DNA of 64,000 nt from Yersinia vastinensis (lineage in GTDB: Bacteria > Pseudomonadota > Gammaproteobacteria > Enterobacterales > Enterobacteriaceae), in contig NZ_CACVAF010000003.1 of NCBI RefSeq assembly GCF_902726565.1, positions 62,001-126,000 on the forward strand, given 5' to 3'. A program made the translations under genes and the position numbers. Under the pieces are notes generated by a model, which was not told where the DNA came from, did not search any database, and was given only the letters and a program-made list of their open reading frames with translations. The stretch's first letter is position 1; every line of letters begins with the position of its first letter. Shown here one piece after another: positions 48,015-63,592 of this stretch.

Positions 48015-48749
48015 TTAAGCCGTTAATCCGCCATCCAACACTAACGCCTGCCCGGTCATATAACGACTATCATTGCCTATCATAAAAGCACTGACACGAG
48101 CGACTTCTTGCGCGTCACCTAAACGTCGTAACGGGATTTGCTTGCGTAATCCTTTTAAGGCTTCAGTCGGCATATTGCGTGTCATGTCGCTATCAATGAT
48201 CCCCGGCAGCAAACAGTTTACCCGGATACCAAAGCGGCCCATCTCCAGCGCCAATGAGCGGCCCAAACCAATCATCGCGGCTTTACTGGCACCATATGCA
48301 CTCTGCCCGATATTCCCCTTGATGGCAGTGACTGAAGACATCAGTAACACCGCGCCCTCACCTTGCATCATCATTGGTGGCAAGAGGTGCTTATTCCAGT
48401 AAAAAATAGCATTCAGATTGGTATCTATGACGTTACGCCAGTTATCACCATTCTGCTGAATGTGTAAGCCATCTCCTGTAATGCCAGCATTATGGATAAC
48501 GGCACCAGGCGGGCCATATTTTTCTAACAATTGTGGGGCCAACACATCAACATCAGCTTCATTACTGCCATCGCAGCGATAGCTGGTCACTCGACCGGAC
48601 AACTCTTCGCAGCTATCGATAACATCGTGGCTCTGTTGTTCACCATGACGCCAAGTAAAAACAACATCCCACTCTTTGGCTAGCTCTTCAACCAAGGCGC
48701 GGCCAATGCCACGGCTTCCCCCCGTAATTAACACCCATTGCCTGCTCAT
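48015..48749 (-). CDS. 3-ketoacyl-ACP reductase (FabG-type KR)
   Basis: 244 aa short-chain dehydrogenase. NADPH-binding TGGSRGIG (9-16), HNAGITGDGL, and catalytic Ser139, Tyr152, Lys156 (MSSV, AYGASK). It reduces a 3-ketoacyl-ACP to the 3-hydroxyacyl form. Last gene of the operon, 4 nt after the ACP gene; together with KS, dehydratase and ACP it forms a dissociated fatty-acid-type cassette. No enoyl reductase gene is present, so the product may be unsaturated, hydroxylated, or completed by the cell's FabI. Confidence 0.87.
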   Translation of the reverse strand: MSRQWVLITGGSRGIGRALVEELAKEWDVVFTWRHGEQQSHDVIDSCEELSGRVTSYRCDGSNEADVDVLAPQLLEKYGPPGAVIHNAGITGDGLHIQQNGDNWRNVIDTNLNAIFYWNKHLLPPMMMQGEGAVLLMSSVTAIKGNIGQSAYGASKAAMIGLGRSLALEMGRFGIRVNCLLPGIIDSDMTRNMPTEALKGLRKQIPLRRLGDAQEVARVSAFMIGNDSRYMTGQALVLDGGLTA

Positions 48750-48753
48750 AATA

Positions 48754-49002
48754 TTACTTCTTCTGCTCGGCCAGCTTCTGACAAAGCTCGCCTAATGTCA
48801 TATCCGGGCTGTCCATAAACATCTCAGCGTTTAATGTTGCGCCGAATTCACGCTTTGCTAGCACCATCAACTCAACATAATCCAGGCTGTCGAGTTTTAA
48901 CTGATGCAGTGGCATTTCAGGTGACAGCTCAGACATCTCCAAGTCTTTGGCGTCACACAACATTTCACATACGGTGTCATAAACGTGTTGATACTTTTCC
49001 AT
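48754..49002 (-). CDS. Acyl carrier protein
   Basis: 82 aa, acidic, four-helix ACP with the phosphopantetheine site Ser39 in LKLDSLDYVELM. It is not the housekeeping acpP sequence, which has GADSLD. It carries the growing chain for the neighbouring KS, dehydratase and KR. 13-nt gap from the dehydratase gene, ribosome site AAGGA. Confidence 0.88.
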   Translation of the reverse strand: MEKYQHVYDTVCEMLCDAKDLEMSELSPEMPLHQLKLDSLDYVELMVLAKREFGATLNAEMFMDSPDMTLGELCQKLAEQKK

Positions 49003-49015
49003 GGTCTTATCCTTT

Positions 49016-49846
49016 TTAATGCGCGGCTAACGGCCACGTTTTTAATGTTACAGCGGTGGTCATTAATGGCCCGATATCAGTTCGGGCCTGAATAGCCGAG
49101 CGCAGTACCCAGCCATCATCTGAATTACCGACAATCAGTGTCGGCTCGATGGCATAGTGCAGTGCGCTGCGGACAAATAGTTGTGGGTGGTTGATACGCA
49201 GTAAATCAGTACTGAAATGCACATCATGGTGAGTCTGAATAACCGGCACAGACTTAAAGATATCAATCAATGTCTCTGCCTGAATGCCCGGTAATACCTG
49301 TTTGGCCATAGCCAGTGTTTCTGGCGCTGCAACCAACAATTTAAACAATAACGCATCGAAAAAACCCCAACACTCAGCGGGTTGCGATACGTCACCCGGA
49401 AATTGCTGACTGAGTTGATAAACGTCATCGGCAGATAATGTGGCCCATGGTTCATTGTCAGTCTGTACTAGCGTGGGCGCACTACGCAGCTTGCTGTTAA
49501 AGCAATTTTCGCCATTTCCACTGCTCTTCAAATTGCCACTTACCTGCCCCGGCACTTGGCTGAGCTGTAACTGATACGGCGTATGGCACAATACCGGTTG
49601 ACGTAAGCGCGCGGTAAAACGCAGAAAATCTGCGTCGGGTACGGCGCTTAATAACGCCGTACTGAGCTGATATTTGATATCCAGCATTGCGCGCATACCG
49701 TGGACAGTCAGTTGCTCCTGCCCCAGATGTTGTGCGTGCCGGAGATCAAAATGGATCGGGTTGTAATCGCCAGAAAACGCCGCCCAACGTTCTGCGTCAC
49801 TGAGGCTGTAGTTGTAGTTAAAAACTGTATTAAAACTCATGTTCAA
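49016..49846 (-). CDS. MaoC-like 3-hydroxyacyl dehydratase
   Basis: 276 aa. N-terminal hot-dog domain with the hydratase-2 motif FSGDYNPIHFD; catalytic Asp27 and His32. The second half is divergent and probably a degenerate hot-dog that completes the fold, as in two-domain MaoC enzymes. It would remove water from 3-hydroxyacyl-ACP. Overlaps the KS gene by 4 nt. Alternative role: (R)-specific enoyl-CoA hydratase feeding precursors. Confidence 0.78.
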   Translation of the reverse strand: MNMSFNTVFNYNYSLSDAERWAAFSGDYNPIHFDLRHAQHLGQEQLTVHGMRAMLDIKYQLSTALLSAVPDADFLRFTARLRQPVLCHTPYQLQLSQVPGQVSGNLKSSGNGENCFNSKLRSAPTLVQTDNEPWATLSADDVYQLSQQFPGDVSQPAECWGFFDALLFKLLVAAPETLAMAKQVLPGIQAETLIDIFKSVPVIQTHHDVHFSTDLLRINHPQLFVRSALHYAIEPTLIVGNSDDGWVLRSAIQARTDIGPLMTTAVTLKTWPLAAH

Positions 49847-51093
49847 TCCAACCCAATAACCAATGCCGCATTCGCCCCACCAAAACCGAAACTCAAGTTC
49901 AATGTGTTGCGTAGCACGCCCGACCGATGCCCTTCACTGATATAATCAAGGTCACATTGCGGATCCGCATTTTTCAAATTGCAAGTCGCAGGCATCAACT
50001 GATGTTGCAGTGCTTGTAAGCAGATAATGGATTCAAAGCTACCGGCGGCGGCAATCAAATGACCGGAATAGGATTTGGTGCTCGACAGTGGCGTGGTATA
50101 GGCCGCCTCACCAAATGCCTGCTTAATGGCTTGCGTTTCGTTCAAATCATTAAGCTGAGTTGAGGTGCCATGCAGGTTAACGTAGTCAATTTCATCCGCA
50201 CTCAACCCTGCCTGCTGTAAAGCGTGTTGGATAGTTTTCACGCGCGCCACTTTATCTTCTGCAGGTGCAGTGAAATCAAAAGCATCGGAATAGTTACCGT
50301 AACCTTTTATCTCGCCAAGAATGTGAGCGCCACGGGCAATAGCGCCTTCCCGCTCTTCCAAACACAACACTGCCGCCCCTTCAGACAGCACAAACCCGTT
50401 GCGATCTAAGCTAAATGGGCAACTGGCTTTACTCGCCTCTTCTTGCTCACGCGCCAGCGCTCCCAAAATATCGATATTCCACACTGCGGCATCACTGCGC
50501 AGTGATTCACCCGCCCCAGCCAGCATCATTGTGGCTCGTCCACTGCGGATGATTTCAAAAGCATCACCAATGGCAATAGTCCCGGTGGCACAAGCAGCGA
50601 TCGGTGAATTCTGATAACCGCGTAATCCCCAATACAAACTACACGCCGCAGTACCGGCATTCGGCATCGACAAGAAACAACCGAACGGTGTGCCCAGTCC
50701 AGTTTCTAAATAACCTTCATAGTTATCATGAGTTTCATCCTGACCTGCCCAACCACTGCCGATGATGGTGCCGCAATCGAGCAAGTCGTAGTAATCCGCT
50801 GGGGACTTTTCAGCAAATGCCATTGCCATGGCTTCTCGTGCTGCGGCCAGCGCTAATCGTGCATAGCGCGGCAAGCGGCGGCGTATTGCAGCAGGCACCG
50901 CTTTCAGATTAGGTTCCGCATCCAACAGGCCAAAAAATCGCGATTTGATGCCCTGTTCGGATTTATCGTAATAACGGTAACCCAATTGGTAATCCATAAT
51001 CGCTGCCCAGCTTTGCTGCGCGGTCATGCCCATTGGCGTCACACTGCCATAACCGGTGACAACAACCCGGCGCTGTTTGATGCTATTTGTCAT
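49843..51093 (-). CDS. Beta-ketoacyl-ACP synthase (FabF-type KS)
   Basis: 416 aa thiolase-fold condensing enzyme with the full Cys-His-His set: Cys168 (IAACATGTIAIGDA), His308 (YVNLHGTSTQLND) and His345 (STKSYSGHLIAAAGS). It elongates acyl-ACP with malonyl-ACP. It is separate from the housekeeping fab genes and sits in the exporter operon, 4-nt overlap with the TolC-like gene upstream and with the dehydratase gene downstream. No chain-length-factor partner is present, unlike aryl polyene clusters. Confidence 0.88.
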   Translation of the reverse strand: MTNSIKQRRVVVTGYGSVTPMGMTAQQSWAAIMDYQLGYRYYDKSEQGIKSRFFGLLDAEPNLKAVPAAIRRRLPRYARLALAAAREAMAMAFAEKSPADYYDLLDCGTIIGSGWAGQDETHDNYEGYLETGLGTPFGCFLSMPNAGTAACSLYWGLRGYQNSPIAACATGTIAIGDAFEIIRSGRATMMLAGAGESLRSDAAVWNIDILGALAREQEEASKASCPFSLDRNGFVLSEGAAVLCLEEREGAIARGAHILGEIKGYGNYSDAFDFTAPAEDKVARVKTIQHALQQAGLSADEIDYVNLHGTSTQLNDLNETQAIKQAFGEAAYTTPLSSTKSYSGHLIAAAGSFESIICLQALQHQLMPATCNLKNADPQCDLDYISEGHRSGVLRNTLNLSFGFGGANAALVIGLD

Positions 51094-52487
51094 GATTTAA
51101 TTCCTTTACTGTCCCGGCTGTTATCAACACCCCCGCCCAAAGCCAACCACAATTTCATGGTCGCGTTCAGGTAGTTATATTGAAGCTCAAGCAAATTGGT
51201 TTCACTGGTCAGCAGGGCATCCTGCGCATCCAGTAAGGTCTGAAATGAGACGGCGCCTGCTTGATATTGGCTATTGGTCAGGCTCAGTCGGCGTTGACTG
51301 AGTTGCAGGTTTTGCCACTGATTTTGTTTTTGTTGCTGATAACTGAGCCGCGCCGTCATCGCGTCGTCGACATCTTTAAGCGCGCTATAGACCTTGCTGC
51401 GAAAATTTACCGCAGCCAATTGCACATCCAACTTCGACTGGTCAATAGTGAGCTGCACGGTGTTCCACTGTAAGAAAGGCAGTGCGCTATTAACACTCAG
51501 CGTCCGACTAGGGTTGCTGAACCATTGTGAGAAGACAGCGCTGCCCGCATCCAGCGAGGCCCCCAACGACAGTGTTGGATAGAAATTCAGTTTCGCGACA
51601 TCCGAACCCGCTAATGCAGCACGTAACCGCCACTCGGCGGCTTGCACATCGGGCCGCTGCGCAATCACCTGTAGCGGCAAACTCTCGGCGATCGGCACCT
51701 GTTGTTGTAAATCCAGTGCCTTGCGCTCGGCCTGACGATAATCCGGCGCGCGATTAAACAGTAGCGCCATGGCATTACGCGCAGCTTCCCGCTGCTGTTC
51801 AAGATTGTGATACTGGTTTTGACGATCCAGTAATGCCTGTTGTGCCTGCAACAGTTCTATTTCACTGGCATCCCCTGCCGCCAAGCGCGAACGCACGATA
51901 TTAAGTGTGTCTTGCGAGATAGCCAACGCAGCCTGTTGGTAACCCAACTGCTGATTGAATTTAGTAATCTGCCAGTAGAGATCAGCGGTAGTGCCAATCA
52001 ATGAAAGTGCGGTTTCCTGACGATCTTGCTCAGTGGCATTGACCAGCCAGGCAGATTGCTCACGCGCACGAGCCAGTTTGCCCCACAAATCCAGCTCGTA
52101 ACTCAAGCCAAATGAGGTGCTATAACTTTCTCGTGGTTGAGTGTTTTCATTCAATGAGCGAGTATTGCTGCCGGTGCCCGTTAAGGTGACGCTCGGGTGC
52201 AAATTGGTATTAGTTAACCCCGCCGTCAAACGTGCCTGTTGTAATTTCAATCCGGCGGCAGCCAGATCGTTATTACTGAGCAACATGCGGTTGATGCTTT
52301 CAGACAATTGCGGATCATCGAAATTTTCCCACCAGTGCACACTGTGGTGCAGATAACCGCTACCACTGTCTTTAACTCGCCATTCGTCAGGTACTGACAG
52401 CATTGGCCGCTGATAGTCACTTTTCAGTAACGAGCCGCAACCGGTGAGTAGTAGGATAATTATCCCGGCGTTAATTAATTTGATCAT
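51090..52487 (-). CDS. Outer-membrane efflux lipoprotein (TolC/NodT family)
   Basis: 465 aa. Lipoprotein signal IIILLLTGC with the acylated Cys at residue 17, then two OEP repeats of long helices (LSESINRMLLSNNDLAAAGLKLQQARLTAG; second repeat from about residue 250 to 440). It forms the outer-membrane duct for MacAB, whose genes directly precede it with a 4-nt overlap. Having its own duct shows the system does not rely on chromosomal TolC. Confidence 0.87.
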   Translation of the reverse strand: MIKLINAGIIILLLTGCGSLLKSDYQRPMLSVPDEWRVKDSGSGYLHHSVHWWENFDDPQLSESINRMLLSNNDLAAAGLKLQQARLTAGLTNTNLHPSVTLTGTGSNTRSLNENTQPRESYSTSFGLSYELDLWGKLARAREQSAWLVNATEQDRQETALSLIGTTADLYWQITKFNQQLGYQQAALAISQDTLNIVRSRLAAGDASEIELLQAQQALLDRQNQYHNLEQQREAARNAMALLFNRAPDYRQAERKALDLQQQVPIAESLPLQVIAQRPDVQAAEWRLRAALAGSDVAKLNFYPTLSLGASLDAGSAVFSQWFSNPSRTLSVNSALPFLQWNTVQLTIDQSKLDVQLAAVNFRSKVYSALKDVDDAMTARLSYQQQKQNQWQNLQLSQRRLSLTNSQYQAGAVSFQTLLDAQDALLTSETNLLELQYNYLNATMKLWLALGGGVDNSRDSKGIKS

Positions 52488-54460
52488 TCTCGTGCCAGCG
52501 CCTCGGTTGGATGCAAACGCGCGGCATTGCGTGCAGGGAAAAAGCCAAATCCCAAACCAATAAGCGCAGAGAAACTACAGGCCAAGACCAACGGCGGCCA
52601 AGTGAAAACCATGGTAAAGGTCTGAGTCACCGAAGAGAAAATCACCCCTGCCAGCGCGGAACCCACAATACCAATCAGGCCACCAAGGGTGCAGATGACC
52701 ACAGCCTCAATCAAAAACTGGAGCATGATGTCGCTCGGACGTGCGCCTACGGATAGACGAATACCAATTTCATGGGTGCGCTCTGTCACGGACACCAACA
52801 TAATATTCATCACACCTACCCCCCCCACCAGCAGAGAAATTGCCGCTATGGAGGTGATCAGCAGTGTCATGGAGTCAGACGTTTTCTGAATCGCCTTGCT
52901 CATCTGGTCATTGTTCAGAATAAAAAAGTCCCGCTGACCATGAGCCTGCTCCAGTAGCTTTTCGACATCATTTTGCACGTCATTAAGGTTGTAACCTTCA
53001 CGCACCCGCACCGCTATTGACTCCAGTGGAATATCCCCCGAAATACGCTCGGTCAGAGAGGTGTATGGCATCCAGGCAGCCAATAATCCGCCGAATGACG
53101 AACCGCCGTGCTTGGCGACCCCCATGACGCGTAATGGAATGCCACCGAGTTGCACGATTTCGCCTATTGGGTTTTCCCCTGCGGCAAATAGTGTGTCACT
53201 GAGCTCCGGTTGTAAAATGACCACCGGCTCACGCGCATTCACATGGTGCTGGGTAAAATCTTCACCCGCCGTGAAATTCAGTCCTTTCACCTGAAAATAG
53301 CCATTGCTAACCCCAGAGAGCGACACCATCACTTGCTTATCACCACGTACTGCCGTCACCATTTTACTTACCACCGGTGACAAACTATCGACATAGGGTT
53401 GGCGGCCTAACAGCTCGACATCTCTTTGCGAAAGTGCACGTTCAAAGTCTGGGCGAGGTTTATCCCAACCCAACCCAGGGCGAATGTCCAGATTACTGGT
53501 TCCCAGCTGGCTGATTTCGTTGAGAATTTCCTGTCGCGCACCTTCCCCTACGGCCATTGAGGACACCACCGAGGAGATGCCGATAATAATGCCGAGCATC
53601 GATAAAAAAGCACGAATACGGTGCCCCAGTAGTGAGCGCCAGGCCATTTTGATAGCCTCTCTAACACTCAACCACCAGTGCGGGCGACCCGTGGCGACCG
53701 TGGCGGGCAGTGCGGCGTTGACCGCCGCCGCGCCGATGGCTTCATTATTGTTATCGGCAATAATTTCACCGTCGCTTATCTCGATAATACGCTGTGCCTG
53801 ATTGGCGATATTGCGGTCATGGGTCACGATAATAATGGTGTGCCCGGACTGATGCAGGCCGTGCAAAATCCCCATTAGCTCCTGCCCACTGGCACTATCT
53901 AGCGCACCGGTCGGCTCATCAGCCAAGATAATACCGGCACCATTCATCAGCGCGCGGGCAATACTGACGCGCTGCTGTTGCCCGCCAGAAAGCTGTGCCG
54001 GTTTATGTAGCAAATGTTGACCAAGACCTAAACGGCGCAGCAGATAAGTGGCGCGTTCCTGACGCTCGGCCATACTCATGGCGGTATAAAGCGCGGGGAT
54101 CACCACATTTTCAGTCGCTGTTAAATACGGCATCAAGTGATAGCGTTGAAAAATAAAACCGATATATTGGCTGCGTAACTGCGCAAGTTGCTCGCTGCTG
54201 GCCTGACGCGTCGGGATGTCATGAATCGACATCTCCCCCTGCGTCGGTTTATCTAAGCAACCAATAATATTCATCAGCGTTGATTTACCCGAGCCGGAAG
54301 CACCAATAATCGCAACCATTTCACCGCGATGAATCGACAGTGAGATATTCTTGAGCACCGCAACAGAGGCAGTACCGGAAGCGAAATGGCGATAAATCCC
54401 CTTGAGTTGGATCAACGGGTTACCGTGGATGTCACCGGGATGAACCGTATTAACGTCCAT
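52484..54460 (-). CDS. macB: MacB-type ABC exporter
   Basis: 658 aa. N-terminal ATPase (Walker A GASGSGKST, signature LSGGQQQRVSIARALM, Walker B IILADEPTGALD), then four membrane segments with a large periplasmic MacB domain (about residues 310-530) and the FtsX-type C-terminal permease (VGGVGVMNIMLVSVTERTHEIGIRLSVGAR). MacB-type machines act as mechanotransmitters that push periplasmic substrates through MacA and a TolC duct. The likely cargo here is the GG-leader peptide product. 11-nt overlap with macA. Confidence 0.9.
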   Translation of the reverse strand: MDVNTVHPGDIHGNPLIQLKGIYRHFASGTASVAVLKNISLSIHRGEMVAIIGASGSGKSTLMNIIGCLDKPTQGEMSIHDIPTRQASSEQLAQLRSQYIGFIFQRYHLMPYLTATENVVIPALYTAMSMAERQERATYLLRRLGLGQHLLHKPAQLSGGQQQRVSIARALMNGAGIILADEPTGALDSASGQELMGILHGLHQSGHTIIIVTHDRNIANQAQRIIEISDGEIIADNNNEAIGAAAVNAALPATVATGRPHWWLSVREAIKMAWRSLLGHRIRAFLSMLGIIIGISSVVSSMAVGEGARQEILNEISQLGTSNLDIRPGLGWDKPRPDFERALSQRDVELLGRQPYVDSLSPVVSKMVTAVRGDKQVMVSLSGVSNGYFQVKGLNFTAGEDFTQHHVNAREPVVILQPELSDTLFAAGENPIGEIVQLGGIPLRVMGVAKHGGSSFGGLLAAWMPYTSLTERISGDIPLESIAVRVREGYNLNDVQNDVEKLLEQAHGQRDFFILNNDQMSKAIQKTSDSMTLLITSIAAISLLVGGVGVMNIMLVSVTERTHEIGIRLSVGARPSDIMLQFLIEAVVICTLGGLIGIVGSALAGVIFSSVTQTFTMVFTWPPLVLACSFSALIGLGFGFFPARNAARLHPTEALARE

Positions 54461-55643
54461 TGCTCACTCCCGATGGCGTGCCCATCAATACCACCTGATC
54501 ACCTGGTTCTAGCCCCTCTTTGACCTCGGCATACTGCGCATCGCGCAGCCCCAGAGAGACCCAGCGCACCCGCTTCTGTTTGTCTTTGATAATCTGGACT
54601 TGATAGCGTTTATTCGCGTTTGGTGCTAAACCAGATTGCGGTGCACCGAGAGCCGACAATGGCACGCGCAGCACATTTTTAGCTTGTGCGGTAATAATGA
54701 AGACCTGTGCCGTCATTGATGTGCGCAATAGCCGCTCATGGTTAGCAATGCTGAATATGCCGTTGTAATAAACCGCAGAAGGCTGTTGGTTGTTTGCTTG
54801 CCCAGAACTCTCTTCGCGTAAGCTGTCTGCGGACGCTTCCTGAATGGCATCCATCTGGCTTTCGTAGCGACGTTCAGGATCAGCTACCACATAGAACCAC
54901 AGCGGTTGCCCAGCATGGACTTTGAGTATGTCGGTTTCTGAAATGCGTGTTTGTACCGTCATGGTATCGACATTGGCCAATACCAGAATGGTCGGCGCAG
55001 TCTGTGAGGAAACAATAGTTTGCCCCTCTTTGGTGACGATCCCCAGCACTTCACCATCAATCGGTGCCAAAATACGAGTAAAGCCCAGATTGGCTTTTGC
55101 GGTTTCCAGTGCCATTTGGCTTTGTACAATTTGAGCGTCGTTAACATGCAATTGTGCTAACTGACTGTCATATTGCGCCTGCGCTTTTTCCAGCGTACTT
55201 TTTACACCAGATCCCTCTTTTGCCAGCGTCTGTTGACGACGAAACTCAAGCAGATATTGGCGCAACAATGCCGCCGACGCCTGTTTCTGCGCCTGCGCAC
55301 TTTGTAATTCAGCCTCTGATTTACGCAATTCGTTTTGCTGCAAGGTCGGGTCAATTTCAGCCAACAACTGACCACGAGTGACGCGGTCGCCCTGTTTGAC
55401 ATACAGCTTGGTTAACTGCCCATTGACCTGTGCGCCCACATTGACCTGCAATGAGGGCTTTAAACTGCCGGTTGCCATGACATTGCGTTCAATATCACCA
55501 CGACTAATTGTTTCGGTTAACGGTGGCGTATCTTGCGAACCGCCCGATAACAACAGTGCCGCCAGTGCGCCAATCGCCAGCAAAACGATAACCAATAGGG
55601 CGAGTGATAGCCGCTGCTTCTTGTTCAACATGTTAATACGCAT
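54450..55643 (-). CDS. macA: MacA-type periplasmic adaptor
   Basis: 397 aa membrane-fusion protein. N-terminal anchor (about residues 12-33), lipoyl halves (VGAQVNGQLTKLYVKQGDRVTRGQLLAEID and ILAPIDGEVLGIVTKEGQTIV) flanking a coiled-coil hairpin, then beta-barrel and membrane-proximal domains. It joins MacB to the outer-membrane duct. Start shares 1 nt with the stop of the C39 exporter gene upstream. Confidence 0.89.
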   Translation of the reverse strand: MRINMLNKKQRLSLALLVIVLLAIGALAALLLSGGSQDTPPLTETISRGDIERNVMATGSLKPSLQVNVGAQVNGQLTKLYVKQGDRVTRGQLLAEIDPTLQQNELRKSEAELQSAQAQKQASAALLRQYLLEFRRQQTLAKEGSGVKSTLEKAQAQYDSQLAQLHVNDAQIVQSQMALETAKANLGFTRILAPIDGEVLGIVTKEGQTIVSSQTAPTILVLANVDTMTVQTRISETDILKVHAGQPLWFYVVADPERRYESQMDAIQEASADSLREESSGQANNQQPSAVYYNGIFSIANHERLLRTSMTAQVFIITAQAKNVLRVPLSALGAPQSGLAPNANKRYQVQIIKDKQKRVRWVSLGLRDAQYAEVKEGLEPGDQVVLMGTPSGVSNGR

Positions 55644-57793
55644 CAGTTAACCGCCGCAGGAGTGAGGTGAGCGGAGGCCACAGGTTGAATGCAGCTAACC
55701 AGTTGGCCATCATTTAAGCGGAAAACTCGGTCAAACATCGGCAGCACGCTTTCACTGTGAGTGACGGTGATCAATGTTTTTTGGTATTCGCGGCAATGGG
55801 CCAATAACGCCTGCATTACCTGCTGGGCGGTATTTTCATCCAGATTGGCGGTGGGTTCATCCAATACCAAAACCGGGCAATCACTGTACATGGCGCGAGC
55901 CAGTAGTAGCCGCTGGCGCTGCCCTAAAGAGAGTGCGGCATGGCTTTCACGTACCAACGCACTGAGACCACCGGGCAATTTATCGATGACATGGGCCAAT
56001 TGCAGCCCTTGCAGCGAACGTTCAATACGCTGGCGTTTGCTCGCGTCTAGATGCCCATCAAACAAAGTGATGTTTTGTAATACCGAGGCGTTGAACAGAA
56101 TATCTTCCTGACTTTGCAGGAAAAACAACGAATGAGCCTGCTGGAAATCCACCGGTTCACCATCCACGATCACTTGCCCTTGCTGTGGTGGCATCAATCC
56201 GGCCATCACTTTCAGCAAGGTACTTTTTCCAGCACCGGACTCACCGACAATCGCCACGCTTTGTCCACGCGTCAGAGACAGTGACAAGTCACGTAATACC
56301 GGCTGACGGGCATCATAGGCAAAGCGAAGATTCTGATAAACCAACTGATGGTTAAACTCCGGTGGTGCTTTGGGTACCGCAGAGCTTTTTTCCGGGGCCG
56401 ATGACTGCCCTGCGGGGAACAAATCGCGCGCGCGAATATCAATTACGTGCAATTGGTTCTTCTGCAAAATGGCATAGAAGATTTTGGTGATGTAAGAGGT
56501 GAAAATTTCACGCACAAAACTGTAGGCAAAAAACTCGCCCAAACTCAATGTGCCTTGCTTTAACAATGGCAACGCCAGCAGCATGAAGAACACCATTTCC
56601 AAACTGCCGATGAGCTGATAGAGGCTATTTTTGACCTGGTCGTAGATTTTCTTCTTCTGTAATGCGGTAAATAATGACAGCGCCAAACCGGCGAATACCC
56701 CTTGGCGTTGGCTGGATAAACCGGCAGATTTAATGGTGGAAAACCCCTGAATGGTTTCCAGAATAAAATCACTTTGCTCGGCACCTTTCACCTGTAACTG
56801 CTGGGTGTAATAGCGGTCACGGTAGATGGCCCAAATACTGATAAGCCCCATCAGCATCACACCAATAGCCGATACCATCGCCAACAATGGACTCATATAA
56901 CACATCACGGCCAATGCAATCGCGCCGATTATCCAGTCAGTCCGCAGGCCATTATCCAACTCAATTTTTTGTGTCGCGGCCATTTGCCAGTTTGAGAACC
57001 GACTGAAGATGTCACCAGGCGCCCGCTTATCAAAGAAGTTAAGCGAGTGACTAAGTAATCGGGAGAAACCCGCCACACTGTTCAGCACCACAAAATGTTT
57101 AATATAGCGCTCGGTGATATATCGCACGGCAAAAGCCAGTGACGTCGAAACCACAAAGGCTAAGAGAAAATAGAAATAGGGAAAATCTTTATCGCCAGCG
57201 GAGGAAAATACGTCATTAATGGCGCTACTGACCATCGTCGGCATAATAAACAGCGTCAGGGAGATCAAAAATGCCAGCGTCATCAGCCAGTAGATCCCTC
57301 GGATATTCGCCGTCTCCTTCAAGCTCATGCAGTCGAGCGCACTGAGTCGTTTACTGTGTTCGATTTTTTTCACCGCGTCTGAGTCTGCTGGCGTGTCAGG
57401 ATCCAGTACTAACGCATAACCGCTGATTTCTGCTTTTAAAGCATCCATGGGTAGCAGTTGCTGCCCAATCGCGGGGTTCATGACGCAGACATAGTTGCCT
57501 TGGCGATAAGCAAGCAGCACATAATGGTTGGCACCATAATGCAAGATAGCCGGCAGCGGTAAAGCCGACAGCTCTTGATGTTCAAACACCACTGGGTAAG
57601 CCGGTATGGCCAGCTCAGATAAAATAGTACAAAGCGTGGCCAGAGATGTGCCATGCCCTGAGGCAGGATAACGCTCACGCAAGCTTTCCAGCGGGGCATT
57701 GATGCCTTGGGTCTGTGCCAGCATCGAAATACAGGCCAATCCACATTCATTGGTTTCGCTTTGAAAAACGAGCGTTGGGATTATCTTTTCCAT
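55643..57793 (-). CDS. C39-peptidase-containing ABC exporter (bacteriocin type)
   Basis: 716 aa. N-terminal C39 peptidase (1 to about 130) with Cys17 (NECGLAC) and His90 (GANHYVLL); the third position is Asn106 (MNPAIG) where Asp is usual. Six membrane segments (about 165-430) follow, then an ATPase with Walker A GESGAGKST, signature SLGQRQRLLLARAMY and Walker B VLVLDEPTANLD. Such proteins cut leaders after Gly-Gly while exporting small peptides. The obvious substrate is the GG-leader peptide encoded at 59827-60015. 25 nt after the acyltransferase gene. Confidence 0.9.
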   Translation of the reverse strand: MEKIIPTLVFQSETNECGLACISMLAQTQGINAPLESLRERYPASGHGTSLATLCTILSELAIPAYPVVFEHQELSALPLPAILHYGANHYVLLAYRQGNYVCVMNPAIGQQLLPMDALKAEISGYALVLDPDTPADSDAVKKIEHSKRLSALDCMSLKETANIRGIYWLMTLAFLISLTLFIMPTMVSSAINDVFSSAGDKDFPYFYFLLAFVVSTSLAFAVRYITERYIKHFVVLNSVAGFSRLLSHSLNFFDKRAPGDIFSRFSNWQMAATQKIELDNGLRTDWIIGAIALAVMCYMSPLLAMVSAIGVMLMGLISIWAIYRDRYYTQQLQVKGAEQSDFILETIQGFSTIKSAGLSSQRQGVFAGLALSLFTALQKKKIYDQVKNSLYQLIGSLEMVFFMLLALPLLKQGTLSLGEFFAYSFVREIFTSYITKIFYAILQKNQLHVIDIRARDLFPAGQSSAPEKSSAVPKAPPEFNHQLVYQNLRFAYDARQPVLRDLSLSLTRGQSVAIVGESGAGKSTLLKVMAGLMPPQQGQVIVDGEPVDFQQAHSLFFLQSQEDILFNASVLQNITLFDGHLDASKRQRIERSLQGLQLAHVIDKLPGGLSALVRESHAALSLGQRQRLLLARAMYSDCPVLVLDEPTANLDENTAQQVMQALLAHCREYQKTLITVTHSESVLPMFDRVFRLNDGQLVSCIQPVASAHLTPAAVN

Positions 57794-57818
57794 TTTCTAC
57801 TATTCTTCGTAAGTGACA

Positions 57819-58775
57819 TTATTCATTAATAAAAAACAATGAATGTGAGTGCCATAACAGCCAGTCTTGTGGGTGCTGCGTCATTGATATTTCAATCAAT
57901 TCAGGGAGTCTTTTTTTCACTTCCCGAGCATTAAGCGATGGATAAATATGGATTTTTATTCCTTTGTCGTAATACAGATAATAAAAAACCACTTGCGCTG
58001 AAAGTGCTCTGGCAAGACGGATAATGCCACTGTGTAAATTGGCCGGACGACTGAACAGATGACAGGGCATTTTTGCCGTTTCTGTCGTCTGGTTATTGAT
58101 GGTGTAATCCGGCGTAATATCCGGAAAAATCATAATATTTCGCTTATGCTCTGCGGCTTCCATAATGGCATCCATCAGGTTGCCAGCAATGGCACGGCTA
58201 TCTGCATGAATAGAGCAATAAGAGATATTCACCCCACCCATTTGCCGAGCCTGCTCTTCATAAGCTTCTGCGCTAGCAGAGACCACCACCGTCGCCTGGC
58301 CGGGATACGCGCCTGCGCCCACCATCCCTGCAAGCACATCAGAGACCATATGTAACGGTGCCAAAATAACTGGCGAACCGGCCTCGTGCAGTGCTTTAAC
58401 GTGACTGTCTAATTGCTCGGTGCATGCAGCCAATTGCGCTAAAACACGCCGATTTTGTCCAAAAGTCGCGGCTAATTCCAATATCTGACGGCGCTGGGCG
58501 GTACGGATAAAGTTCCGTGCCGATGGGCTTTTCTGACCGTTCAACAAGCACTGGCTATTGGCCTCGGCCACCAGAGCCAGATTCTTCTGCTGGCGTGACG
58601 ACAAACCGAAAGCCCGGCGCAAAGCACCGAGCATCAGTAAAAAGCGATAATCACCGTGCCGTAATATCCCGATAGCCAGTTTGGCCTGCAAGCGGGCAAA
58701 TACCTGCCCACTGAAAGCCAACTTATCCAACTGGTTTCTCCAGGCGAAATAACCCCATACGGCTAACAGTCTCAT
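57819..58775 (-). CDS. LpxL/HtrB-like acyltransferase
   Basis: 318 aa. The region PVILAPLHMVSDVLAGMVG corresponds to the HX4D/E acyltransferase motif of LpxL but with three residues between His and Asp; IMIFPDITPDY and HLFSRPANLHSGIIRLARALSAQVVF follow as in late lipid A acyltransferases. These take acyl groups from ACP, so it could use the acyl-ACP made by the operon's own cassette. The acceptor is unknown: the exported peptide or a lipid are both possible. It shares 1 nt with the DsbA-like gene upstream. Confidence 0.72.
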   Translation of the reverse strand: MRLLAVWGYFAWRNQLDKLAFSGQVFARLQAKLAIGILRHGDYRFLLMLGALRRAFGLSSRQQKNLALVAEANSQCLLNGQKSPSARNFIRTAQRRQILELAATFGQNRRVLAQLAACTEQLDSHVKALHEAGSPVILAPLHMVSDVLAGMVGAGAYPGQATVVVSASAEAYEEQARQMGGVNISYCSIHADSRAIAGNLMDAIMEAAEHKRNIMIFPDITPDYTINNQTTETAKMPCHLFSRPANLHSGIIRLARALSAQVVFYYLYYDKGIKIHIYPSLNAREVKKRLPELIEISMTQHPQDWLLWHSHSLFFINE

Positions 58776-59473
58776 TATTTCTCCAGCGCCTTGTCGTGCT
58801 CGAGTAATGACAAGAGGTGATCCGAGAACGCAGGGAATTCACGATCCTGTAACGCTATCCATTTTTTGCCGACAATAAAGGTTGGCGTCGCATCAACGTT
58901 GTAATGGGCGGTCACCGCAGTCATATAAGCAATCAGTTCTTTAACCTGCGCTGACTGACTAACTTGCTGGTATTTAGCGACATCAATGCCATTGGCTATC
59001 AGCCAAGCTTCAAGCTTGCTGTTATCGCTAAAATCGATGTTGTCTTCGAGTACCGCTTTGTAGGCGCTCGCCCGATGCTGAGATTCAATACCCATCACAG
59101 ATAAGGTGGCAAACATCGGTGCAAAACGCCCCAAACCGGTCGTCTTATCACTGCTGATATGCAGGCGAACAAAACGAGTACCTTCTGGCATGCGACGTTC
59201 TAATTGGGCGACATTATCTTCGTTAATGGCACAGTAATGGCAGCCATAAGAGAAGATTTCGATGATGCTTTTATCATCTTTAATCGGGCTATTTTCGATT
59301 TCACTACTACTAATAGAAAACAGGCTTTCCTGCGGATCCTGATTGAGCACGAAATAATGGAAACAGGCCGTTGTTATCAATGAAGAAATAATAATAACTA
59401 ACAGTGTGTAGCCTATGAAGAATCCCTTACTTCTAAACAGACCTTTTTGGGCAGCCCCATTATTTATAGACAT
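58775..59473 (-). CDS. Membrane-anchored DsbA-like thiol oxidoreductase
   Basis: 232 aa. A signal anchor (about residues 17-43) holds a periplasmic thioredoxin-fold domain with an active site Cys78-His-Tyr-Cys81 (SYGCHYC) and the cis-Pro loop DATPTFIVG. A helical insert lies between, as in DsbA. It probably forms disulfides in the four-Cys exported peptide. First gene of the operon that runs to 48015. Confidence 0.83.
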   Translation of the reverse strand: MSINNGAAQKGLFRSKGFFIGYTLLVIIISSLITTACFHYFVLNQDPQESLFSISSSEIENSPIKDDKSIIEIFSYGCHYCAINEDNVAQLERRMPEGTRFVRLHISSDKTTGLGRFAPMFATLSVMGIESQHRASAYKAVLEDNIDFSDNSKLEAWLIANGIDVAKYQQVSQSAQVKELIAYMTAVTAHYNVDATPTFIVGKKWIALQDREFPAFSDHLLSLLEHDKALEK

Positions 59474-59698
59474 AGTAAGTTGTATTCACAATCAGGGTTC
59501 AGGTAAGACATAAACAGGGTCAAATCACCGTTATGTCCGAGAAATAACATCTTTAACATTCATCTAATGCGAAAATTCTTGAATTTAAGCATCGGTGACA
59601 TAATAAAAAAATAAATCAGGCAAGCACAGCAACTCACCCCGTACTTGCCTGTAGGGTATCGTTAAACATTAATAAAATTAACGAAGGCTTAATTTGCC
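59474..59698 (-). promoter_or_regulatory. Gap between peptide gene and operon with a weak terminator/attenuator
   Basis: On the minus strand CAGGCAAG / CTTGCCTG (59651-59644, 59624-59617) forms an 8-bp stem with a 19-nt loop, followed by ATTTATTTTTTTA. It lies between the peptide gene and the DsbA-like gene and could end most peptide transcripts while letting some through. No other gene is seen. Confidence 0.5.
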
Positions 59699-59823
59699 AT
59701 GCCCAAAATAAATCGAGTTGCAGGAAAGCGACAAGCTAGATAATTCCGATGAACTTACTGTGGTAAGTGATTCGGATTATTAAGCGTAGCCAACGTACAT
59801 GCAGCTTGAAATAAGGCGGGTAT
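59699..59823. repeat. ERIC repeat abutting the peptide gene
   Basis: 125 bp, ends ATGCCC/GGGTAT, core GATGAACTTACTGTGGTAAG and GCCAACGTACATGCAGCTTGAA, the same subtype as 16151-16276. It ends 3 nt from the stop codon of the peptide gene and so is transcribed as its 3' untranslated region. Confidence 0.82.
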
Positions 59824-59826
59824 ATC

Positions 59827-60015
59827 TTAACGGCAATTTGCTACGCTAGTTGGTGCAGCAGTGCGGCTAACAACTTTACCGTGCTTGTCAGTACAAGTAG
59901 TAATAGCTTGGCAAGTCAATGTGGTGCTACCAGTCAGCCACTCATAAGTATCTTTACAAGTTTGACCAGTACCGCCAACGATTGTATTGGCATCAGCCAT
60001 GTTCATTTTTTTCAT
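59827..60015 (-). CDS. Small cysteine-rich peptide with double-glycine leader (microcin/bacteriocin-like precursor)
   Basis: 62 aa. A 15-residue leader MKKMNMADANTIVGG ends in Gly-Gly, the cleavage site of C39 peptidases. The predicted mature part is 47 residues, rich in Thr, with four Cys (mature positions 5, 20, 26 and 46) and a C-terminal Arg; two disulfides could form. AAAGGG precedes the ATG. The leader pattern resembles short enterobacterial GG peptides I associate with the DUF4762 family. Its genes for cleavage and export, disulfide formation and acylation follow on the same strand. Activity (toxin, signal or other) is not shown by the sequence, and no immunity gene is obvious. Confidence 0.8.
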   Translation of the reverse strand: MKKMNMADANTIVGGTGQTCKDTYEWLTGSTTLTCQAITTCTDKHGKVVSRTAAPTSVANCR

Positions 60016-60340: not shown

Positions 60341-61171
60341 TTAAAGATACGACATAATCACAACTCCACTGCCACTAAACGTACCAGCATCAGGTAATGC
60401 TGCCGCGTGAAGTGTTGATTCAATCAAGAAAGAGGTATTCCCGACATTACCCGTGACTGTCACACCATTGGATAAATCTTGCCCAGAAACTTTTAATGTC
60501 GATGTGAGATTGCCATTTTGTCCCATAGGGATGCTTTTGCCCCCTACCAAAGTCAACTTCAGCGATGTTGTGGCAGTGCAGTTGATGATTAATGGTTCAC
60601 TTTTTATTGCACCATCAACAGTTTGCTGGTTAAGCGAACCATAATTGATATAGACATCACCCGTAATATCACAAGTTTCTGGTGTGGGTGGAACTGCACC
60701 ACAATAAGAGCCTGGGATGGATTGACCGGTAAAGTTAATATCATTACTGCCTTGCCAATACATGACACCAAAGCAAGTGCCCGCCGCGCGCAATTGGTTT
60801 GTGGTTGTCGTTGCCCAACTACCGGAGGTGCCATTTTGAGCAATAAATGCCGTTCGCATATCTTGGGCGGTTGCGCCACGAGAAACAATGACACGCGTTG
60901 AGGCATAAGAGGGGTTCGCGCACAATTCATCAATATCACTTGAATAGTGACATATTGCGACAGAACAAGATGTGGAATTACACAGTACCCCGGTTAATTC
61001 TTCGCTCGGCCACGAAAAAGTTCCTTGATATTGAGTCCCTACTCGCGTCTGTGTCGAAACCCAAGCACTGGCCTGGCTATAAAGCGGCAATAAGAATAAC
61101 CCGCAAGCGATTAACCCACCAAAAAGATGACTTAACCGTATAGCCGGCTGCTCTATTTGTTTAAGTTCCAT
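60341..61171 (-). CDS. Fimbrial tip adhesin (MrpH-like)
   Basis: 276 aa, longer than pilins. Signal segment within the first 36 residues (HLFGGLIACGLFLLPLYSQASA). An N-terminal receptor domain with several Cys (CNSTSCSVAICHYSSDIDELC, CFGVMYW, GSYCG) is joined by PPTPETC to a C-terminal pilin domain ending VVIMSYL. This two-domain plan and its position as last structural gene match MrpH of Mrp fimbriae. It would sit at the fimbrial tip; its receptor is unknown. Confidence 0.75.
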   Translation of the reverse strand: MELKQIEQPAIRLSHLFGGLIACGLFLLPLYSQASAWVSTQTRVGTQYQGTFSWPSEELTGVLCNSTSCSVAICHYSSDIDELCANPSYASTRVIVSRGATAQDMRTAFIAQNGTSGSWATTTTNQLRAAGTCFGVMYWQGSNDINFTGQSIPGSYCGAVPPTPETCDITGDVYINYGSLNQQTVDGAIKSEPLIINCTATTSLKLTLVGGKSIPMGQNGNLTSTLKVSGQDLSNGVTVTGNVGNTSFLIESTLHAAALPDAGTFSGSGVVIMSYL

Positions 61172-61211: not shown

Positions 61212-61757
61212 TTAATAATATTGCAGGTTAAAAGTGGCGACTGCACTGAACTCACCGCGTTTAATTGTGCGTTGAGTTATTGCTTGAGGTTCACCCCGCA
61301 CATAGGCTTTTAAGGTGATAATATTATTACCCACAGTCAGCCCAATATCGTCACTGGATTGATTTAATAGCAAAGGCTTACCGGCCAATGTTTCAAGACC
61401 AATACCGATACCAACATCATTACCATCGACGGCTAATAACCCCGGCAAATTAGCGTTATCATTACCCGTGAATATGATATTAGCTGTCGTCCCTAAACTG
61501 ACGTCACAATCAACCAAATGTATTTGAAACTGTTTGCCTAAAGTTCGTTGATTCGAATAAAGATATTTATCGACCACTGTACCAAAGTTCAAACTAATGG
61601 CTTCATCACCTGGGCGAATCGTGCAAGGTTCAGCGACTAATGCACCATGAAAACGCATATTGTCTACCGCGGATACTGGCAGGGTCCCAATAATATGCAG
61701 AACCAATGCGCTTAAAATATAACGTCCATGGCGTGTCAGCAGATTTAAATTAGCCAT
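61212..61757 (-). CDS. Fimbrial subunit (MrpG-like)
   Basis: 181 aa pilin. Signal peptide to about residue 30 (LPVSA), then MRFHGALVAEPCTIRPGDEAISLNFGTV, the paired Cys (EPC...DC) typical of pilins, and a C-terminal FSAVATFNLQYY with the penultimate Tyr and beta-zipper pattern recognised by the chaperone. Positioned between the MrpF-like and adhesin genes. Confidence 0.82.
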   Translation of the reverse strand: MANLNLLTRHGRYILSALVLHIIGTLPVSAVDNMRFHGALVAEPCTIRPGDEAISLNFGTVVDKYLYSNQRTLGKQFQIHLVDCDVSLGTTANIIFTGNDNANLPGLLAVDGNDVGIGIGLETLAGKPLLLNQSSDDIGLTVGNNIITLKAYVRGEPQAITQRTIKRGEFSAVATFNLQYY

Positions 61758-61766
61758 TATGTTATC

Positions 61767-62261
61767 CTATTGGTAATCCACTAATAACGTAGCGGTAGCC
61801 TCAAAACTCCCTTCACTTAATGTCGCGCCCGTCGCTTGGACAGGAACTGCCTGAAGCGTCGGCGGATTATTTTTGTCATAAGCAATCCGTGTATTCAGTG
61901 TGAAAGGGGCACCATTTCTCAGTATACGAATGCCCAGATCGGGGATATTGGTTTGTATTGCAGAGAGATCAAATGTGGTAACAGATGCACTCACTATCGT
62001 CAGACCTAATTCCAAGCTGCTGCTTACCGCTTCGCACGTCACACTGTAAGGCACGGTCTGGGTATAATTAATTCCATCAATTTTCTTCACCCCCAGATTT
62101 TCACCAAAGGGCACATCAATGGTATTTCCACCGCTGATGACACAAGGCGGCGGGTTAATTAATGTGCCGGAAAACTGCATATTGTCCGCATGTGCTAACG
62201 AGCAGCTGAAGGCCAAAAACATAGCGACGGTACAGCACGAAGTGAGTGAATTCATATTCAT
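61767..62261 (-). CDS. Fimbrial subunit (MrpF-like)
   Basis: 164 aa pilin with signal peptide to SLAHA (about residue 25), mature start DNMQFSGTLINPPPCVISGG, a second Cys in VTCEAVSS and C-terminal FEATATLLVDYQ. Its start shares 1 nt with the stop of the preceding subunit gene, to which it is clearly related. Confidence 0.83.
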   Translation of the reverse strand: MNMNSLTSCCTVAMFLAFSCSLAHADNMQFSGTLINPPPCVISGGNTIDVPFGENLGVKKIDGINYTQTVPYSVTCEAVSSSLELGLTIVSASVTTFDLSAIQTNIPDLGIRILRNGAPFTLNTRIAYDKNNPPTLQAVPVQATGATLSEGSFEATATLLVDYQ

Positions 62262-62803
62262 TACTGGTACTCCACAACCAAGGTCGCTGTGCCGGAAAAA
62301 TATCCTGTGCTTAACGTCGAATTTATCTGCTTAACCGGTACTGCCTGTAATACAGGGACAGCCGGGTAGGTAAAATTAAATTCGCTATTCAGCGGCAATT
62401 CCTGACCACTTCGCATCAATTTGATCCCCAGATTCGCATTACTGGTTCTCAGAACGGCGGTATCAAAACTCGCCCCATTGCCCTTGATGCTCATTTTCAG
62501 CGCATTGGTTGCCGCCGCAGTACAGTCCAAGGTGTAGGTCACTGGCTTCATATACTGAATACCATCAATATTTGACGTCAGGAGGTCATCACCAAAGTCG
62601 ACGTTAATGTTGTTATTGCTGTTAATGACGCAAGGTGGCGCTGCAAAAATATTGACCGAGACCGTCACCGTCGCCGTCTTATTTAATGCCCAAACTGGGC
62701 TGCTAAATAATGTCGTCGTTCCTACGATGGCCGTCATCCCAATCATGGCTTTCATGACCATCGGGGTCAGCCGGGTAACTATTCCCTTACAAACAACAGC
62801 CAT
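62261..62803 (-). CDS. Fimbrial subunit (MrpE-like)
   Basis: 180 aa pilin. Signal region to about residue 39 (SSPVWA), then TVTVSVNIFAAPPCVINSNNNINVDFGDDL, a second Cys in YTLDCTA and C-terminal FSGTATLVVEYQ. AAGGA precedes ATG 62803. Close in pattern to the next subunit (LGIKLMRSGQ / LGIRILRNGA), suggesting gene duplication. Confidence 0.83.
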   Translation of the reverse strand: MAVVCKGIVTRLTPMVMKAMIGMTAIVGTTTLFSSPVWALNKTATVTVSVNIFAAPPCVINSNNNINVDFGDDLLTSNIDGIQYMKPVTYTLDCTAAATNALKMSIKGNGASFDTAVLRTSNANLGIKLMRSGQELPLNSEFNFTYPAVPVLQAVPVKQINSTLSTGYFSGTATLVVEYQ

Positions 62804-62845: not shown

Positions 62846-63592
62846 CTATTTGACGCTTTCAACCACAGAACAAGTGCTACCCGTACAACCAAAGATCAGT
62901 TTTGGACGGCCACCGAAATCATTGACATACGTCAACACGGGTTTGCTGCCCAATGCTGCTGCACTCACTTCCAACATGCCTTGTGACTTTGGAGCAATCA
63001 TCAGTGGTTTGAAGCCCGCAGCGGTTTTCCCGGTTTTGCTCTCACTGGCATCCACCAGCGTGACGTAATATGGCGTCGGGTTATTAACCTGATAACGATC
63101 ACCCTGACGTGTCAGCTTTAATTTTTCCTGCCAAGGTGTCGACATATCAGCCTTTTGTGGCACGATGCTGGCGGGACGATAAAAAAGTTTGATGCGTGTT
63201 TGCAGCGCAATTTGTAAAGTATTGGGTTTGTCCGACCGTGGTGGAATTTCACGCAGGTTAAAATAGAACAGTGTTTCCCGGTCTTGCGCCAACTGACTTA
63301 CCACCGGCAGTGTTTGTATTTTTAACTGGCTAAGTGCACCTGGCTCAACACGCTGAACCGGTGGGACCACCGTCAATGGCGTATTAATTTTGTTACCCTG
63401 CTCATCTTCAATCCAGCCCTGCGCCAGATAAGGCAGTTGCTTATTCTGGTTGCTGATATTCAAGCTGATCGACTTATCACCACCATTAATGATCGCTCGG
63501 GTTCTGTCCAAAGCGATCGCTGCCGTGGCTTGCTGTGCCATAAGTGCCGTCACCAAAACGGTGGTGATACGCAGTTTGCTAGTCAATTTCAT
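62846..63592 (-). CDS. Periplasmic fimbrial chaperone (MrpD/PapD-like)
   Basis: 248 aa. Signal peptide to about residue 24, then two immunoglobulin-like domains: IALDRTRAIINGGDKSISLNISNQN, the signature LFYFNLREIPP and LQTRIKLFYRP before the domain 2 part ending in paired Cys (FGCTGSTC). It donates a strand to subunits and delivers them to the usher. 42 nt before the MrpE-like gene. Confidence 0.9.
   Translation of the reverse strand: MKLTSKLRITTVLVTALMAQQATAAIALDRTRAIINGGDKSISLNISNQNKQLPYLAQGWIEDEQGNKINTPLTVVPPVQRVEPGALSQLKIQTLPVVSQLAQDRETLFYFNLREIPPRSDKPNTLQIALQTRIKLFYRPASIVPQKADMSTPWQEKLKLTRQGDRYQVNNPTPYYVTLVDASESKTGKTAAGFKPLMIAPKSQGMLEVSAAALGSKPVLTYVNDFGGRPKLIFGCTGSTCSVVESVK

Follow-up and report, generated by a model that had tools for sequence, protein, structure and literature searches.

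Organization of the locus

A 64,000-nucleotide stretch of the genome of Yersinia vastinensis (contig NZ_CACVAF010000003.1; hereafter the window) carries eleven closely packed genes on the minus strand, running from 60015 to 48015, that encode a small precursor peptide with a Gly-Gly (GG) leader together with the proteins predicted to modify and export it (Table 1). The places and strand assigned to these genes in the original prediction, made from the sequence alone, are borne out by the open reading frame (ORF) listing of the window, and its family names agree with Pfam and NCBIfam, with the acyltransferase scoring below Pfam's cut-off for lipid A acyltransferases (PF03279; 20.6 bits, gathering cut-off 22.3). 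Neighbouring genes overlap by 1–11 bases or are separated by gaps of 4–25 bases; only between the peptide and DsbA-like genes is the gap longer, at 353 bases. This gap holds a palindromic repeat with 32 matches in the same genome at E≤1e-5, presumably reminiscent of the Yersinia YPAL repeats. Directly upstream of the peptide gene, just outside the 48015..60015 span of the earlier description and absent from it, is a chaperone-usher fimbrial operon whose last gene, encoding an MrpH-like adhesin, ends 325 bases from the peptide gene; the N-terminal domain of the adhesin scores 20.9 bits (cut-off 27). The module proteins of the window are closest to those of Y. alsatica and Y. frederiksenii, and two of five other sampled Yersinia genomes have no acyltransferase match at E≤1e-15.

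Table 1. Features of the peptide module and the linked fimbrial operon, in window coordinates.
Feature	Coordinates	Strand	Match or remark
DUF4762 precursor peptide, 62 aa (15-aa GG leader, 47-aa core)	59827..60015	-	PF15959
Imperfect palindromic dispersed repeat in the peptide-DsbA gap	59665..59828	-	not part of the conserved module
DsbA-like oxidase; N-terminal hydrophobic anchor (by eye), CHYC active site, cis-Pro motif	58775..59473	-	
Remote LpxL-like acyltransferase, H142-x3-D146 motif	57819..58775	-	
C39-peptidase ABC exporter, C17/H90/N106	55643..57793	-	Pfam, NCBIfam
MacA-type periplasmic adaptor	54450..55643	-	PRK11578 293.7 bits, equivalog cut-off 342
MacB-type ABC transporter	52484..54460	-	PRK10535 738.6 bits, cut-off 966
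NodT-type outer-membrane channel	51090..52487	-	TIGR01845 266 bits, over cut-off
FabF-like beta-ketoacyl synthase (KS), C168/H308/H345	49843..51093	-	Pfam, NCBIfam, solved relatives
MaoC-type dehydratase, D27/N29/H32	49016..49846	-	Pfam
Dedicated acyl carrier protein (ACP), S39	48754..49002	-	Pfam
Ketoreductase (KR), classical short-chain dehydrogenase/reductase, S139/Y152/K156	48015..48749	-	Pfam short-chain dehydrogenase
MrpH-like tip adhesin, encoded by the final gene of the linked fimbrial operon	60341..61171	-	PF24223 (C-terminal domain) 42.7 bits, cut-off 27
Fimbrial subunit	61212..61757	-	PF00419
Fimbrial subunit	61767..62261	-	PF00419
Fimbrial subunit	62261..62803	-	PF00419
PapD-type periplasmic chaperone	62846..63592	-	PF00345, PF02753
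Outer-membrane usher, C-terminal part, continuing past the window	63692..64000	-	contig C3:125986-127629; 853 aa in L149

Conservation of the module

A scan of genome contigs with an alignment of the acyltransferase, with gene content determined by tblastn, yielded 55 distinct named loci, which are spread over 21 named genera plus an unclassified member of the Enterobacteriaceae. The genera include Serratia, Klebsiella, Enterobacter, Citrobacter, Hafnia, Providencia, Rahnella and Pantoea, and ten named Yersinia species are represented. All eleven genes are present in the same order and on the same strand in 49 of the 55, so that the co-occurrence of GG peptide, C39 exporter, MacAB and KS/ACP/KR expected by the original prediction recurs throughout and a chance neighbourhood is ruled out. 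Nine genes are present in five Serratia loci (L064–L067 and L069), in which MaoC and KR are missing and the operon ends at the ACP gene, followed by a FimB-type recombinase gene; the last locus (L061) starts inside the acyltransferase gene at a contig end. The peptide gene is found in 54 of the 55 loci, the exception being cut by the contig end, and the C39 exporter in all 55, as proposed for one coherent peptide synthesis and export module. The acyl cassette without peptide and exporter, which would have argued against such a module, does not occur among these loci, the scan being seeded from the acyltransferase and hence not counting free-living fatty-acid cassettes. A few loci carry genes broken in assembly (e.g. 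L054 and L093).

Relatives of the acyltransferase occur in 47 of 392 sampled genomes of the family, two of them at only 25–27% identity; the DUF4762 Pfam model and our own peptide profile match in 7 and 8, respectively, of 394 genomes of the order, the family and order samples being different and their counts not comparable. One genome (G700; L098–L102 and L123–L125) has three module copies with different peptides, two adjacent to fimbriae and one not, and 36 usher matches.

The DUF4762 peptide

The window peptide is a member of DUF4762 (41.8 bits, gathering cut-off 27), a family of unknown function that appears to be unstudied and is named in no paper found within the one literature library that the search covered. 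Its GG lies at residues 14–15, and the core contains four cysteines (C20, C35, C41 and C61) and a DKxG motif that includes K44. A profile search of the fetched loci gave 76 distinct peptides (weakest match 1.9e-6; those of the named loci 5e-19 or better), in all of which the GG, C35, K44 and G46 are invariant, with D43 present in 73. C20 and C41 are lost only in genomes G228 and G741, and L081 is the sole case of a Trp in place of C61; wherever else position 20 or 61 seems to deviate, the cysteine is present and the alignment has shifted. There are four cysteines in 40 cores, five in 29, six in five and two in two. The additional residue of five-cysteine cores often directly follows the GG, and, unpaired, could carry a second modification or serve in dimerization. 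A search of solved structures found no relative of the peptide. Tandem second peptides are encoded in L068 and L070, and a Serratia silvae genome (G296) encodes two further DUF4762-type peptides as orphans, at a distance from the module (L128:9365-9643 and L143:1495-1716), both retaining the GG, four cysteines and the lysine.

The peptides of G228 and G741 have two cysteines and retain DKHG; both genomes lack the DsbA-like gene and have the peptide and acyltransferase genes side by side. The loss of C20 and C41 together with the DsbA-like gene supports, short of proof, the view that the DsbA-like protein probably acts on the DUF4762 peptide, with pairing of C20–C41 and C35–C61. K44, being kept where a disulfide is lost, behaves as an obligatory modification or contact site. 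RTX toxins undergo lysine acylation, and by analogy K44 is a candidate acylation site. Among ribosomal peptides, the nostolysamides provide a further case of lysine acylation (PMC13060382).

Pooled over 11 Yersinia copies, the ratio of non-synonymous to synonymous polymorphism (pN/pS) is 0.33 for the peptide (core 0.36, leader 0.21), 0.04–0.21 for the module enzymes and transporters, 0.21–0.28 for the pilins and adhesin and 0.09 for the chaperone, with the values for DsbA, MacB, the adhesin and one pilin drawn from 8–10 of the 11 copies. The peptide is under purifying selection, with no sign of diversifying selection. A cognate immunity gene was not found in the cluster, a location elsewhere in the genome being possible: the peptide-DsbA gap in 54 loci has no ORF of at least 40 aa common to more than three loci other than second peptides, and the twelve small ORFs that recur most widely in the first 1.2 kb past the module (30 stretches) resemble, to judge from ORF lists, shadow frames of the recombinase gene. 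The module genes of the window abut. Of the 'microcin-like' label in the original prediction, the short GG leader (76 of 76 peptides) and the dedicated C39 exporter stand, and 'microcin' itself is not established, given the purifying selection and the fruitless search for an immunity gene; class II microcin was set aside as a class assignment because that gene, expected in such clusters, did not turn up in the intervals searched. These two observations speak against a fast-evolving bacteriocin and leave room for an antibacterial action.

Acyl-chain enzymes, acyltransferase and exporters

Catalytic positions of the C39 domain, acyltransferase, DsbA, KS, MaoC, ACP, KR and MacB are unchanged in all covering copies (58–66 copies per position from 67 stretches, a few of them overlapping). 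The single KS retains its active-site cysteine in 66 of 66 copies and is FabF-like by its solved relatives. Aryl polyene clusters have a KS paired with a chain-length factor; neither this factor, nor a second KS, nor an enoyl reductase is present among the eleven genes, as had been noted earlier for the reductase and the factor, and an aryl polyene cluster is ruled out. The KR matches a Pfam model named 'Enoyl-ACP reductase', yet it has the classical S139/Y152-x3-K156 set, so this is a model name only; in FabI enoyl reductases the Tyr and Lys lie further apart. With MaoC and KR absent from the five nine-gene Serratia loci, the invariable part of the acyl supply comes down to KS and ACP, and the short hydroxy- or enoyl-type chain hinted at in the original prediction would be only one possibility on this gene content.

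Lipid A acyltransferases contain an HX4D/E motif. In an hhalign comparison H142 of the window acyltransferase pairs with the LpxL histidine and the acidic residue sits one position closer, giving an HX3D motif with both H142 and D146 present in 65 of 65 covering copies. PF03279 is matched at E≤0.01 by 10 of 18 acyltransferase relatives, and a profile alignment with the three other PF03279 proteins of the same genome gives an E-value of 0.00046 with a probability of only 33 percent. A solved-structure search with the acyltransferase returned one match, at chance level, and none of the eleven proteins has a Pfam match to the GNAT family (E up to 0.01 or 0.001).

The exporter has a C39 domain (PF03412; 82.7 bits) in which C17 and H90 are conserved in 64 of 64 covering copies. 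The third C39 catalytic residue is usually Asp and here is Asn in the same 64. The tripartite MacAB pump set is complete, with the MacB core domain (PF12704; 134.5 bits), the MacA-type adaptor and the channel.

Association with chaperone-usher fimbriae

The proximity of a fimbrial operon is a general property of the module. A chaperone-usher operon on the same strand lies within ~11 kb of it in 52 of 53 decidable named loci (35 upstream and 17 downstream), L053 and L061 being cut by contig ends and set aside. Usher, chaperone and pilin genes are found upstream in 34 of the 55 named loci, and in L052 (Enterobacillus) the operon is ~10 kb upstream; the downstream operons are mostly within ~1 kb, with ~6 kb of other genes intervening in L050 and L055. 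An usher gene on the same strand within 12 kb is expected by chance at ~3 percent, by our own arithmetic from 217 ushers in 17 genomes averaging 5.3 Mb.

The 52 linked loci are not independent, being related by kinship, and trees of the ushers and of the modules were therefore built; both are quick trees with long branches. The usher tree contains 35 upstream-linked, 15 downstream-type and 26 other ushers, with the Enterobacillus usher L122 (FimB-type yet upstream) placed with the downstream group and L124 (~13 kb away, on the other side of the third G700 copy) counted as unlinked. The linked ushers fall into several groups that unlinked ones separate, and the usher of the first G700 copy (L099) groups with the unlinked. 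In the midpoint-rooted module tree, from which the broken or cut loci L054, L061 and L093 were excluded, the Yersinia loci with their upstream MrpH-type operon nest among downstream FimB-type loci, with Shimodaira-Hasegawa-like approximate likelihood ratio (SH-aLRT) support of 100 and 92 percent at the two forks above Yersinia. The Yersinia modules thus seem to have changed both fimbrial partner and side. Downstream of its module, G228 has an usher of yet a different type, 32 percent identical to the FimB-type query, and about three independent pairings of module and fimbriae would be needed to account for the trees, or four with the plasmid copy L148 described below. Because such pairings have apparently arisen repeatedly, the link looks functional, and this is the strongest evidence that peptide and fimbriae act together.

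Downstream-type loci have an inverted repeat pair, 288–305 bases apart, before the first pilin gene. The pair is present in 18 of 99 scanned stretches, 17 of which have an adjacent FimB-type recombinase gene (the other, L111, has a weaker pair), and in none of 160 mononucleotide shuffles of eight stretches. In a second set, 10 of 12 stretches have the pair and the other two (L188 and L195) have neither pair nor recombinase match; several stretches of the two sets cover the same loci. No such pair was found in the window's own fimbrial operon (scanned in L149). Repeat pair plus recombinase is the predicted anatomy of a phase-variable fimbrial promoter. The MR/P fimbriae of Proteus mirabilis have the recombinase MrpI with an invertible-type element and thus resemble the downstream-type loci, and the MrpH-like tip adhesin of the window would be a second likeness; we know of no peptide module associated with MR/P fimbriae.

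Plasmid and divergent copies

A megablast search for near-identical copies of the module on plasmids or in E. coli gave no match. A protein search revealed distant copies in 14 of 72,556 plasmid records, at 27–46 percent identity. That of S. marcescens plasmid pE41 (AP028512.1; L148 and L196) is a far-diverged and rearranged module (L148:159-14898) with the order CS1-type usher, 426-aa protein, 53-aa GG peptide, MacA, MacB, channel, KS, MaoC, ACP, KR, acyltransferase and C39 exporter. Its peptide has two cysteines, is not of the DUF4762 type and is outside the set of 76; no DsbA-like match was found in L148. The usher, two genes upstream of the peptide, matches TcfC (56.4 bits, cut-off 29.4) and falls just under the CooC_C cut-off, and a LuxR-type regulator scoring near its cut-off is further upstream. 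This copy points to a larger superfamily in which both peptide and fimbriae may differ, and the same acyl genes beside a different GG peptide would, together with the invariant K44, favour acylation of the peptide.

Five fetched plasmid copies (L144–L148) were checked for fimbriae. In addition to L148, L145 has an annotated CS22/SEF14-type operon ~12 kb upstream and L146 a type 1 fimbrial protein gene ~2.6 kb downstream, both on the module strand; there is no fimbria among the annotated features of L144 and L147. A GG-peptide pattern search of the E. coli, Salmonella and Chimaeribacter plasmid copies turned up nothing with a credible core. In the Salmonella copy the annotation is fragmented, and an IS1 remnant lies upstream in L144.

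Proposed pathway and alternative explanations

We propose that this dedicated module makes one secreted, disulfide-bonded peptide, probably acylated on lysine, that works together with chaperone-usher fimbriae, and we assign this reading a probability of roughly 0.55. The DUF4762 precursor would be made while KS and ACP, usually with MaoC and KR, build an acyl chain in the cytoplasm that the LpxL-like enzyme transfers, most likely to the side chain of K44. The N-terminus of the core becomes free only when the exporter cuts the leader, so an enzyme that depends on acyl-ACP would more probably acylate a side chain. The C39 exporter, to judge from its family and intact catalytic residues, would then cleave after the GG and move the peptide to the periplasm, where the DsbA-like protein would form the disulfides, probably C20–C41 and C35–C61 as the correlated loss suggests; MacA-MacB-NodT would expel the product, which would be used where the linked fimbriae attach. 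The two-step export envisaged in the original prediction has a published precedent in the heat-stable enterotoxin STII, which is carried to the periplasm, acted on by DsbA and then released by MacAB-TolC (PMC5985334), and family knowledge points the same way. That the peptide is acylated, at which site and with what chain, is our inference.

Several observations weigh against parts of this reading. The acyltransferase is only a remote relative of LpxL, with HX3D rather than HX4D/E, and K44 could instead be a structural or target-binding residue. The joint loss of C20/C41 and the DsbA-like gene is a single event in two related genomes, and with the two-cysteine peptide of L148, also found without a DsbA match, there are two such events, which is few; the 29 five-cysteine and five six-cysteine cores make further pairings possible. 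In the E. coli and Salmonella IncF-type plasmid copies (L144, L145 and L146) the enzymes are kept and the peptide gene was not detected. Fimbriae are lacking within ~9 kb upstream and 18 kb downstream of L072 (Providencia rettgeri RB151) and near four further copies (the second G700 copy, G449 C1, G690 and G651), and G651 and the plasmid relative L147 are also without the peptide and DsbA genes.

The strongest competing explanation, though unlikely, is a lipidated class II microcin, that is, a secreted antibacterial peptide with the fimbriae bringing prey cells close. The GG leader and dedicated C39 exporter fit it well, the tandem and orphan precursors are of a kind often seen with bacteriocin clusters, the core evolves faster than the enzymes, and a 2026 paper lists a lysine-acyltransferase gene among the possible modification genes of Serratia marcescens class II microcins (PMC13101503). 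Opposing it are the failure to find a shared immunity ORF in either interval searched, a core pN/pS near that of the pilins and adhesin, and the presence of MacA where a CvaA/HlyD-type adaptor is expected. Between a surface-colonisation or aggregation factor and a classical microcin the former is a little likelier, because of the fimbriae and because a GG-peptide/C39 pair is needed for biofilm in Synechococcus elongatus (PMC4997328).

A rather improbable alternative is that the substrate of the acyl cassette and LpxL-like enzyme is another molecule, such as lipid A, another glycolipid or a pilin, and that the peptide leaves the cell without a lipid. The nearest relatives of the enzyme are the lipid A acyltransferases, glycolipids are among the MacB substrates in a review (PMC5985334), and the E. 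coli plasmid copies pair the enzymes with no detectable peptide; against this, the genome already has three other PF03279 proteins, the peptide is all but constant among the named loci, and the acyltransferase gene lies between those for DsbA and the C39 exporter in the named loci that cover all three, and beside the exporter gene even in L148.

Still less probable is a host-directed effector analogous in route, not in sequence, to STII: the passage through periplasm, DsbA and MacAB-TolC is parallel (PMC5985334) and fimbriae suit host attachment, but no sequence relative exists among solved structures, the host list from record titles mixes clinical, plant, insect and environmental genera, and STII has nothing corresponding to the acyl cassette. 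Least credible is a module riding passively in fimbrial islands, for which the five copies persisting without adjacent fimbriae, the 5–26 ushers in each of the 17 genomes of the usher count and the ~6 kb (L050, L055) or ~10 kb (L052) of intervening genes can be cited, and against which stand the same-strand linkage of 52 of 53 loci versus ~3 percent by chance, the different usher groups on either side with the apparent partner replacement in Yersinia, and the CS1-type usher of L148.

Relation to known systems

The module belongs with GG-leader secreted peptides, and the combination is probably new; searches for the whole module and for parts of it in one literature library gave, as judged from the listings, no description of the module. 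Class II microcins of Enterobacterales share the short GG leader, C39-peptidase ABC exporter and small secreted peptide, and in some S. marcescens cases a nearby lysine-acyltransferase gene, for which acylation has been raised as a possibility via a different enzyme (PMC13101503). They differ from the present system, which has MacA-MacB-NodT, a KS/ACP cassette, an LpxL-like enzyme, a DsbA-like gene and a fimbrial operon, and no immunity gene found; a term search of the main text of two surveys returned no mention of MacB, DsbA or fimbriae (PMC9746304, PMC13101503). Lipidated ribosomally synthesized and post-translationally modified peptides (selidamides, lipolanthines such as microvionin, goadvionins and nostolysamides) likewise combine a ribosomal peptide with a fatty acyl group, here a predicted one, on lysine in the nostolysamides. 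They are described as lanthipeptides acylated by GNAT-family enzymes (PMC13060382), in contrast to the LpxL-like enzyme, own KS/ACP and disulfides here. STII, with its periplasmic stop, is exported through Sec (PMC5985334), whereas the module has a C39 exporter, its own oxidase and channel, and acyl genes, with no sequence relation shown. The EbfG/PteB system of Synechococcus elongatus also couples GG-leader small proteins to a C39 exporter in biofilm development, a likeness by description only, and the abstract mentions no acyl cassette or fimbrial operon (PMC4997328).

The occurrence of the eleven-gene set in many gut and environmental bacteria, nearly always near fimbriae, suggests a secreted peptide working with attachment. 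With the fimbrial link, a guess from gene clustering becomes a question that can be put to the test: why fimbriae would need a secreted peptide of their own. If lipidated, the product would represent chemistry new to these familiar bacteria, and we know of no earlier ribosomal peptide that is acylated by an LpxL-type enzyme. A broader proposal, which we advance tentatively, is a new class of surface system pairing fimbriae with a companion lipopeptide, in which an LpxL-descended enzyme would lipidate lysine with a custom acyl chain, two ABC transporters would act as a relay, the fimbria would fix the site of action, and partners (FimB-, MrpH- and CS1-type) would be swapped while the factory is kept.

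Other genes near the module

In a Providencia locus a Wzy_C/PglL-like ligase gene (L074:7257-8927; PF04932, 66.9 bits) lies between the fimbrial and peptide genes, and its product is possibly a glycosyltransferase acting on pilin. In Enterobacillus tribolii a 1429-aa protein with a C-terminal FKBP-type isomerase domain is encoded directly before the peptide gene (L052:3788-8077), and a relative of it precedes the peptide in Pluralibacter (L053). The genes upstream of four Rahnella and Ewingella loci (L057, L058, L060 and L062) resemble cheR, cheB, cheY and cheZ by eye, and by these names the module would lie in a motility region.

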